Origin: an uncultured Arenicella sp.
GTDB taxonomy: Bacteria > Pseudomonadota > Gammaproteobacteria > Arenicellales > Arenicellaceae
NCBI GenBank assembly: GCA_938048185.1
Contig: CALIVT010000001.1
Location: 1 to 64,000, forward strand
DNA: 64,000 bases
Direction: 5' to 3'
Below are positions 4,310-17,917 of the stretch, in pieces. The translations under genes were made by a program, and so were the position numbers. Position 1 is the stretch's first letter, and each line of letters begins with the position of its first letter. The notes below the pieces were generated by a model that worked only from the letters and a program-made list of their open reading frames with translations, did no database searches and was not told the origin of the DNA.

Positions 4310-5635
4310 CTAGGTATTAGCCCACAAATCATGTTCGTCGCTGGCGTGCACCGTCACACTGACGATATCACCAACGTTATGTTGTACTTCATCGTTAAGA
4401 TAGACCAATCCGTCAATTTCCGGTGCGTCGGCTTTGCTGCGGCCGACTGCGCCTTGCTCGTCGACCTCGTCGATAATAACGTCGATGGTCTTGCCTATTT
4501 TCTTGGCAAGTTTGTCGGTGCTGATTTTAGCTTGTAAGCCCATAAATTCGGCGAGTCGATGTTCTTTTATATCGTCGTTAACGTGACCATCAATCGCATT
4601 CGCGGCGGCACCTTCAACTGGCGAATATTTAAACGCGCCCACGCGGTCAAGTTGCGCTTCGTCAATGAAGTCTAGCAATTGTTTAAAATCGTCTTCTGTC
4701 TCGCCGGGAAAGCCGACGATAAAGGTGCTACGAATAGTCAGGTCGGGGCAAATTTCGCGCCACGCTTTCACGCGTTTTAAGGTGTTATCAATTGCGCCTG
4801 GGCGCTTCATGGCTTTAAGTATTTTTGGTGACCCATGCTGAAAGGGAATGTCTAAATACGGCAATATCTTACCTTCGGCCATCAATGGAATGATGTCATC
4901 AACGTGCGGGTAAGGGTAGACATAATGCAGGCGCACCCAAGGTGTGTTTTCACCGCCGATATCACCCAGCGCATTACACAAATCAAGCATTTTGGTTTTG
5001 ATTGGTGCGCCGTTATGAAAGGTAGTGCGGTATTTCGTGTCGACGCCATACGCTGAGGTGTCTTGCGAGATTACTAATAATTCTTTAACGCCCGATTTAA
5101 CCAGCCCTTCGGCTTCGGCTACTACGTCGTTCGCGGGTCGGCTCACTAAATCACCGCGCATTGATGGAATAATGCAAAAGCTACAACGATGGTTGCAGCC
5201 TTCGGATATTTTCAAATACGCATAATGCCTAGGCGTTAGTTTGATGCCTTGTGGTGGCACTAAATCGATATGAGGGTTATACGGCGCGTCGTAAGGCAGG
5301 TGTGTTTTTACCGCGCCCAATACTTGCTCGTAGGCGTGCGGACCGGATACATCTAGAACACTTGGGTGTACGTCGGTAATGTCTGATTCGGTCGCGCCCA
5401 TGCAGCCGGTAACAATGACCTTGCCATTTTCACTAAGCGCCTCGCCAATGGTGTCTAATGACTCTTTCTTAGCAGAATCGATAAAACCGCAGGTATTCAC
5501 CACCACCATGTCGGCGTCTTGGTAGCTCGGCACAATGTCATAGCCATTGGTACGCAGCTCGGTCAGAATAAGTTCTGAGTCGACCAATGCTTTAGGGCAG
5601 CCTAGGCTGATGAATCCAATTTTAGGAGCAGACAT
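4310..5635 (-). CDS. rimO: Ribosomal protein uS12 methylthiotransferase RimO
   Basis: 441 residues. RimO is a radical-SAM enzyme that adds a methylthio group to the conserved aspartate of ribosomal protein S12 in the cytoplasm. The N-terminal MTTase domain has cysteines at 13, 49 and 78 ([21 protein letters not shown]) for one Fe-S cluster. The radical-SAM CxxxCxxC is Cys147/151/154 ([10 protein letters not shown]). A C-terminal TRAM domain (about 375-440) would bind the substrate. [11 protein letters not shown] is characteristic of RimO rather than MiaB. The gene stands alone on the minus strand, facing the remnant genes at the left. Confidence 0.96.
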
Positions 5636-17304: not shown

Positions 17305-17651
17305 TTAATAGATCGGCTTTTAGTAACAGGTTTCTTCTATGAAGCGTTTACTAGTGCTTTGATTTATTAGTCTTGAAGTAAGTACTTAATGTAAGTGCTT
17401 AATATAAGTGCTTAATATAAGTGCTTAGGCAGTTTTAATGAGAGAAATCTCGTTGGTTTGAAAAAAAGTTGGGATCGACTTTGCGCGTTCCAAAGTTTGC
17501 TTGTAAGCGGACCGATAGCGCCAAGGTACAAATTAACCCCACGCTAAATTCGAGCGTAGTTTTGGTTCGCTATTTAGTACTGAAAAATTATTAAACAGAA
17601 GCTTGATTAAGGAACGAATTTACCTTACTCTCACGCTCCTTGAAAAGACAC
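17305..17651. repeat. tRNA spacer with four 13-bp tandem units (17378-17429)
   Basis: The 347-bp gap between tRNA-Ser and tRNA-Arg holds no gene. At 17378-17429 four 13-bp units run head to tail: GTAAGTACTTAAT, GTAAGTGCTTAAT, ATAAGTGCTTAAT, ATAAGTGCTTAGG. Near the end, AAGGA (about 17610) can pair with TCCTT (17637-17641), ending 10 nt before the tRNA-Arg 5' end. Confidence 0.75.
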
Positions 17652-17728
17652 GCGCATGTAGCTCAGCTGGATAGAGTACCTGGCTACGAACCAGGCGGTC
17701 GGAGGTTCGAATCCTTCCATGCGCGCCA
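17652..17728 (+). tRNA. tRNA-Arg(ACG)
   Basis: 77 nt. The acceptor GCGCATG pairs with CATGCGC, followed by G and encoded CCA. The anticodon stem-loop CTGGC-TACGAAC-CAG gives ACG, the inosine-modified Arg anticodon reading CGU/CGC/CGA. It has a canonical D arm (AGCTCAGCTGGATAGAG) and T loop. Its last 19 nt are duplicated 167 bp downstream. Confidence 0.97.
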
Positions 17729-17917
17729 AACAACAAACCCTCGCCAAAGGCGGGGGTTTTTTGTTTGGTATTCATGAAAGTATGATGAGAACGTTACGTT
17801 CGACAAAATTGTTTGGAACAATTTTGCACGGCCGCAGGCCAGCCCCGAAGAGGTGAAGCGCACGGACGCGCTGAATAATCCTTCCATGCGCGCCAAACAA
17901 CAAACCCTCGCCAAAGG
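17710..17917. repeat. 41-bp direct repeat copying the tRNA-Arg 3' end (17710-17750 and 17877-17917)
   Basis: The two copies are identical over 41 bp and offset by 167 bp. Each contains the last 19 nt of tRNA-Arg including CCA, plus 22 bp of flank. The second copy ends just before the G-run and loses the terminator. Between them are two hairpins (GAACG-TTA-CGTTC; CAAAATTGTT-TGG-AACAATTTTG around 17803-17825) and a GGCCGCAGGCC dyad, with no gene. From 17918 to 18089 I see only AT-rich DNA leading to pilU. Reverse-strand frames over this segment end in the WKDSNLRPPGS-type string and are antisense tRNA artefacts. Confidence 0.9.
17729..17767 (+). terminator. Rho-independent terminator after tRNA-Arg
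   Basis: The stem CCCTCGCC (17738-17745) pairs with GGCGGGGG (17749-17756) over an AAA loop. It is extended by A-rich/T-rich arms and followed by TTTTTTG. This is a strong terminator for the csrA-side tRNA transcript. Confidence 0.88.

Follow-up and report, generated by a model that had tools for sequence, protein, structure and literature searches.

What leads a tRNA gene to be followed by a second copy of its own 3' end? An intact tRNA-Arg(ACG) gene raises this question in the stretch of DNA analyzed here, 64,000 nucleotides from an uncultured Arenicella sp. (hereafter, the window). The first-pass annotation had described a perfect 41-bp repeat containing exactly the last 19 nt of this tRNA with CCA, and had likened it to the rtT repeats of the Escherichia coli tyrT locus. 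A direct repeat search bore out the first point: the two 41-nt copies are 100% identical and start 167 nt apart, with an interval of 126 bp between them, and each starts with the AATCC of the T-loop, takes in precisely 19 nt of tRNA 3' end, CCA among them, and continues for 22 nt into the trailer. The likeness to rtT also held, in that the 19-nt tail opens at the same AATCC in E. coli. The second copy had been said to lack the terminator; it stops at position 17917, inside the terminator stem, and carries the 5' arm only (Table 1). Given a perfect 41-mer at 167 bp and a like unit at tRNA-Arg(ACG) in five other genomes of the genus, chance is of no concern for this repeat.

The gene order around the repeat, using candidate names from reading the translations, is alaS, lysC, csrA, tRNA-Ser, tRNA-Arg, and a PilT/PilU-like ATPase. 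Between tRNA-Ser and tRNA-Arg, at 17372-17423, there are also three degenerate tandem copies of a CTTAATATAAGTG-like repeat with a 13-bp step. In a tail scan of the window's own genome, a full second tail was found at the window tRNA only (1 of 30 tRNA genes), and the remaining copies in this genome are decayed, cut, or of a kind that lies upstream of the tRNA.

Table 1. Features of the tRNA-Arg(ACG) locus, in window coordinates
Feature	Position	Strand	Basis or remark
tRNA-Arg(ACG), intact	17652..17728	+	ARAGORN; Rfam tRNA
41-bp repeat, copy 1: T-loop AATCC, 3' strands of T-stem and acceptor, CCA, 5' arm of terminator	17710..17750	+	
Intrinsic terminator of the tRNA-Arg(ACG) gene	17735..17759	+	consensus match
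Decayed inverted copy of tRNA tail and T-arm (CATGaAAG..AT..GAAC)	17773..17792	+	sequence reading; weakly complementary to second tail
GTTCG, left half of split T-loop	17798..17802	+	
Element core, 74 nt	17803..17876	+	R1 match 17797-17876, 82.9 bits, E 1.5e-16
Hairpin H1, GGA in loop (17815-17817)	17804..17826	+	
Hairpin H2, GGCC-GCA-GGCC	17830..17840	+	
Place of hairpin H3, poorly formed in window copy	17842..17853	+	
Hairpin H4 (CACGGACG), loop ACGGAC closed by C-G	17854..17875	+	
41-bp repeat, copy 2: right half of T-loop, tRNA 3' end, half terminator	17877..17917	+	

A folded core in a split T-loop

The interval between the repeats holds a core that sits exactly in the T-loop of a partial tRNA copy, splitting it as TTCG^AATCC (the caret marks the junction), and the right flank of this core matches the intact tRNA-Arg(ACG) over 40 nt. 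Cores of this type start at the A of ACAAA, end in GAGT or GAAT, and are mostly 70-86 nt long. These limits are confirmed by head-to-tail arrays in relatives, where model positions 7-77 are repeated and GAGT is directly joined to ACAAA. Alignment A3 comprises 13 cores from five tRNA contexts (Arg ACG, Arg TCG, Glu, Ser GGA, and Lys). For searches we used R1, a covariance model restricted to the core (tail excluded), which counts the window copy among its 13 seeds and leaves out the rows from E. coli and from genomes G027, G041, and G046.

The first-pass annotation had suggested that the hairpins in the spacer could be part of an RNA, and the pairing conserved among relatives is in keeping with an RNA-like structure. 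A3 yields four hairpins with a tandem G.A, which in H4 of the window copy lies at 17855-17856/17873-17874, next to a stem at 17857-17861/17868-17872. Pairing was found in 94.7% of the A3 cells, compared to 28-42% when partners were slid, although this percentage leans toward structure because the structure was drawn from these very sequences; that alone does not explain the two-sided changes. Such changes affect 11 of the 22 pairs, a number reached in 1 of 500 shuffles, and 40 cells, compared to a mean of 12.7 in shuffles (as high in 0 of 500) and 2-10 in slid controls. The number of further pair types was no better than chance (19 versus 17.3 in shuffles; 94/500). Compared with shuffles, folding is better for the unit plus its terminator (z = -4.23) but not for the core alone (z = -0.50) or the unit minus the terminator (z = -0.53); we dropped folding energy as evidence, and the case for structure therefore rests on compensatory changes. 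With strong compensatory pairing among relatives, the core is a conserved structure. Some cores (L066:1222-1330, L112:985-1103, and L124) have a further insert (CCATCCTTCGGTC...GGCACATCCATGTGCCA) in or right after H1.

Seats of the core at stable-RNA genes

We examined 132 R1 matches in 94 loci, chosen among the matches listed; genome G039 contributes ten of its 29 core-like matches to this set. In the window's family, 71 of the 103 core places among the matches listed lie no more than 500 nt from an intact tRNA (63), 5S (5), or tmRNA (3) gene on the same strand. Another 9 are at contig ends, and no intact stable-RNA gene was found at the remaining 23, some of which seem by eye to follow a tRNA or tmRNA end that is cut or decayed.

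To locate the junctions, we compared both flanks of each core with the intact same-strand tRNAs of its locus, a comparison that applied to 73 of the 132 matches. Among the matches listed, 52 of these 73 cores resolve to one tRNA break, and all of the breaks are in loops (39 T, 12 D, and 1 anticodon); 43 of the 52 match at 5 or more nt on each flank, and 21 of the 73 were without a resolved break. When junctions were shifted by 12-45 nt in five rounds, 6-7 of 71-73 passed, mostly outside loops, and only 0-2 had at least 5 nt on both flanks. The first six R1 positions (GGTTCG) favor T-loop left flanks, a bias that does not extend to right flanks or to cases in the D-loop, anticodon loop, or 5S. 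All 13 D-loop and anticodon cases are upstream of the intact tRNA, with its leader and 5' part kept, and 33 of the 39 T-loop cases are downstream, with the 3' part and trailer kept to varying extent. Both kinds occur at L072, L112, and L117. Exact splits within a loop are seen at several different tRNAs, both upstream and downstream of the intact gene.

The seats extend beyond tRNA. In G019, G020, and G014, a 5S gene lies 81-82 nt upstream of the first core, and the motif split there, CATGTG^AAAGTAGG, is one that lies in an internal loop of 5S. A tmRNA precedes cores in the window's own genome and in G001. Two further arrangements were seen: in G026 (L087), one partial tRNA-Ser(CGA) copy has two cores, in the D-loop and the anticodon loop, both at TCG^AA, and in G007 (L106:1-330), 164-bp tandem units with the core in the D-loop run from the contig end and lie upstream of tRNA-Arg(CCT).

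Retention of the tail varies. A tRNA ends no more than 130 nt upstream of 36 cores, 18 of which retain at least 17 of the 19 nt of their own tRNA's end. Glu and Lys loci supply 10 of these 36 cores, all with decayed tails and none reaching 17, and one tRNA-Lys unit of G014 keeps its tail at 19/19.

The window's own genome has seven R1 matches at E <= 0.01 among the matches listed, including the window unit. Two cores follow tRNA-Glu, one follows tRNA-Lys and is cut by a contig end, one sits in a D-loop just before tRNA-Arg(CCT), and one lies 242 nt after tmRNA. The core at C4:53 has 5S-like flanks by eye, yet Rfam detects no 5S there. Across the genus, the site after tRNA-Arg(ACG) is visible in 12 of 18 genomes, and the same kind of unit as in the window follows this tRNA in G001, G004, G005, G014, and G015. 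The first-pass annotation had considered that relatives might all lack the repeat; this is so for six genomes, which by reading share another terminator type, and not for the six that carry the unit, our own included. No pair of strains with and without the core at an otherwise identical site was seen. Core identity is 0.736 for copies at different genes within one genome, 0.718 for copies at the same gene in different genomes, and 0.671 for copies that differ in both. These values, about alike within genome and within gene, demonstrate neither purely vertical inheritance at each locus nor a recent burst, and would fit descent, conversion, or spread. Two further features were seen at this tRNA: upstream of the intact gene in G014 (L055, approximately 4830-5035, minus strand), there appear by eye to be two decayed, core-less tandem copies of a near-whole tRNA-Arg-like sequence, and what follows the unit is different in each of three relatives (L052, L053, and L054), a pattern reminiscent of an integration hot spot.

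Many loci have a spacer that looks like an inverted copy of the end of the local tRNA. In E. coli, GGGGAAGGATGAGAAGCTTCG matches the reverse-complemented tRNA-Tyr end except at 3 of 21 positions, and in the Rfam structure part of this sequence is paired with the tail. We tested 37 units chosen for at least 14/19 tail matches, so the 34 exact tails among them are a conditional count. Complementarity between spacer and own tail averaged 7.38, compared to a permuted mean of 5.80 and maximum of 6.42 (300 permutations), and the duplex energy was -17.28 versus -13.59 kcal/mol, the lowest of 200 permutations being -15.2. Singly, 18 of the 37 units beat 95% of foreign tails. The 45-nt spacer of the window gives a weak signal, with -8.9 kcal/mol for its own tail, a mean of -5.7 for foreign tails, and a foreign best of -11.0.

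Taken as a whole, the sequence comparisons point to a probable explanation: the unit is a loop-inserted, non-autonomous element of an RtT-like family that was probably once mobile. Each unit would be a partial copy of the neighboring stable-RNA gene with a loop split by the folded core. The core would have inserted precisely, probably in the form of a non-autonomous mobile element with a preference for loops in structured or palindromic sequence, and insertion would have been accompanied by a tandem partial duplication that left the working gene intact. Arrays could then grow through head-to-tail duplication. The inverted copy in the spacer may have originated by fold-back (template switch), which at a terminator hairpin during replication would yield just such a copy, or it may reflect selective maintenance of a unit-closing stem. 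A transcript, if one is made, would consist of a hairpin at the tRNA end and a four-hairpin head, much like E. coli RttR. The intervening sequences of 23S rRNA are also short folded inserts in stable-RNA loops, but here the insert is carried by a surplus partial copy, with the working gene left whole.

Regulatory RNA and dispersed repeats as alternatives

Alternatively, the unit could be a selected regulatory RNA, a small RNA whose two GGA loops titrate CsrA/RsmA and whose expression is driven, now or once, by tRNA or rRNA transcription. We consider this possible but somewhat unlikely. Hairpin loops with GGA, as in CsrA sponges, are present in the sequence: across 86 distinct family cores, the GGA columns of the H1 and H4 loops are 0.91-0.98 conserved, and stem columns fall as low as 0.35. 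GGA is found in the H1 loop of 114 and the H4 loop of 115 of the 132 R1 matches, and H4 takes the form CA-n-GGA-n-G, that of the CsrA/RsmA (RsmE) consensus, in 98 of the 132. These counts are biased because R1 was built from GGA-bearing seeds, and by eye the cores of E. coli rtT, G041 (L059), G046 (L058), and G027 (L063) have no GGA in either loop. The sponge RNAs RsmX, RsmY, and CsrB likewise consist of repeated GGA-loop hairpins, whereas the core described here is tied to tRNA fragments; one G014 array scored 39.6 bits against rsmX, for which the cut-off is 56.

Expression of RtT-type RNAs has been reported elsewhere. Excerpts of two papers describe Northern signals for RtT RNAs of Actinobacillus pleuropneumoniae, placed upstream of tRNA-Asn and tRNA-Lys genes (PMC4986893), and detection by RNA-seq in Thioalkalivibrio (PMC8092127). 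Against a selected regulator in our case stand the presence or absence of the unit between species of one genus and the lack of a sigma-70-like promoter in our search of the window unit, from which the tRNA is separated by a terminator. With that terminator and no such promoter found, expression of the window unit is doubtful. In the parts examined of the literature naming both RtT and CsrA, no link is drawn between the two.

A second alternative is a REP/BIME-like repeat that builds up in intergenic DNA rich in hairpins, where stable-RNA genes would be frequent but not special neighbors. REP and BIME elements are likewise short, non-coding, hairpin-rich, and multicopy, and similar cores are dispersed in other genera. 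A pattern scan of named genomes returned 84 stretches, of which 80 were listed; it sampled one kind of core, as the pattern fixed parts of H1 and H2. R1 gave 117 matches in the scanned stretches. Twenty of these are no more than 400 nt from a tRNA or tmRNA, 7 of the 20 coming from the window's genus, and the remainder are mostly dispersed in Methylomonas, Methylobacter, Salinicola, Thioalkalivibrio, Ectothiorhodospira, Halothiobacillus, and others. By eye, several dispersed cores lie inside palindromes such as GATACTTTC...GAAAGTATC. In G039 (e.g., L147-L155), the ten examined of the 29 core-like matches share the flank GATGAACGCCGGGCTGAAA or a close variant and have the look of a REP family; no tRNA, 5S, or tmRNA lies on their strand within 500 nt. 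Published excerpts agree in part, since rtT is said to resemble BIMEs (PMC2965389), rttR is listed as containing REP (PMC12306157), and a small-RNA survey of Pectobacterium places RtT matches beside protein genes, ansA and ECA2950 (PMC4710047). The dispersed copies and the Pectobacterium matches tell against an exclusive tie to stable-RNA genes and would fit a wider preference for hairpin loops.

Even so, we judge the REP/BIME reading unlikely, as neither the 71 of 103 family places beside stable-RNA genes nor junctions exact to the loop would be expected from random intergenic repeats; here the core has a precise seat in fragments of stable-RNA genes and comes with a copy of the local gene end, in contrast to REP. 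We also rejected a simple REP moved by a RAYT: in these draft genomes, copy number does not track matches to Y1 (RAYT-type) transposases, with 25 core matches and no Y1_Tnp in G014 and six Y1_Tnp matches without a core match in G002. No transposase or integrase could be tied to the core.

Kinship with RtT and its implications

The rtT repeat was reportedly described in 1991 by Bosl and Kersten (cited in PMC4986893), and to our knowledge its function and origin have been open since then. The first-pass annotation had suggested that the locus in the window may be an independent case of the process seen at E. coli tyrT. It could then have arisen convergently, by slippage that duplicated a tRNA 3' end in tandem; alternatively, the two could share descent. 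A period of 167 compared to 178 in E. coli and an equal 19-nt tail would suit slippage, but the two also share a core anatomy. As in the window, where a core in a split T-loop is followed by the 3' 19 nt of the local tRNA, the RtT/RttR units of E. coli tyrT-tyrV have the core in a split T-loop (GGTTCGA...AATCC) and a tail made up of precisely 19 nt from the local tRNA, in a tandem arrangement. The E. coli units also have a spacer-tail stem, a feature significant over the 37 units tested above and weak in the window copy. A tandem G.A motif is reported for RtT in an excerpt of a further paper (PMC7657543).

We then scored these sequences with the Rfam RtT model (RF00391; gathering cut-off, 45 bits). 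The three E. coli units scored 134-138 bits, and the window's own genome, including the window copy, had no match at E <= 1. Matches at E <= 1 were found in 11 of 61 relatives, with the cut-off passed in one, G046, from another genus of the same order (45.8 bits). Within the genus the best score was 30.2 bits, and RF00391 aligns full-length at the tRNA-Arg(ACG) unit in G014 (26.7 bits, E 0.0066) and, weakly, in G001 (21.0 bits) and G004 (18.3 bits). A tRNA gene stands beside the match at 8 of the 8 relatives' loci examined. Among 369 genomes of the class, with at most 8 candidates scored per genome, 65 have a match at E <= 0.001 and 23 have one above the cut-off. The end of the local tRNA (Gln, Tyr, or Ser) is copied after the element at 18 of 30 class RtT loci, with the tail at 19/19 in all but two, although this count leans toward tail copies because RF00391 itself spans the tail; of the other 12 loci, three have no tRNA gene detectable by ARAGORN.

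Given RtT matches at the same tRNA in the genus and one above the cut-off in G046, common descent with rtT is likelier than convergence. This evidence led us to reject independent slippage, which we regard as very improbable. By sequence, the core in the window is best called a divergent relative of Rfam RtT, RtT-like rather than a member by curated score. It differs from RtT in that the window copy falls below the Rfam score, its A+T-rich H1 and its GGA loops are absent from E. coli, and a terminator separates tRNA-Arg(ACG) from the unit; in relatives, cores are also found in D-loops, in one anticodon loop, and by tmRNA and 5S, before or after the intact gene. We found no description of RtT-like cores in D-loops, tmRNA, or 5S in the literature searched, which included few subscription papers and did not cover the 1991 paper.

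The first-pass annotation had also raised an att duplication, in which the 41-bp repeat would be the attL and attR left by an excised island; tRNA 3' ends are common attB sites and, by reading, the sequence after the unit differs among relatives, but a simple att scar is hardly credible and was rejected, as the five relatives with the same short unit have no island between the repeats, and the interval contains a conserved core that is also found before and after other tRNAs and by tmRNA and 5S.

Returning to the loop-inserted element, a bolder version of this explanation can be put forward tentatively: RtT as a whole may be, or may once have been, a mobile element that entered with base precision the T-, D-, and anticodon loops of tRNA, the T-loop of tmRNA, and loops of 5S, leaving partial and often fold-back copies next to the intact gene, and in the Arenicella-like lineage its loops may have become CsrA-binding sites scattered across stable-RNA loci.

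A loop-inserted element would give partial tRNA copies one cause, and it supplies a rule that can be tested in any gammaproteobacterial genome: the junction should fall before an A in a loop, as in TCG^A. If the element is mobile and targets loops, this would be a new habit among bacterial repeats. Binding of CsrA by the GGA loops, if it occurs, would mean that stable-RNA loci supply input to a global regulator.
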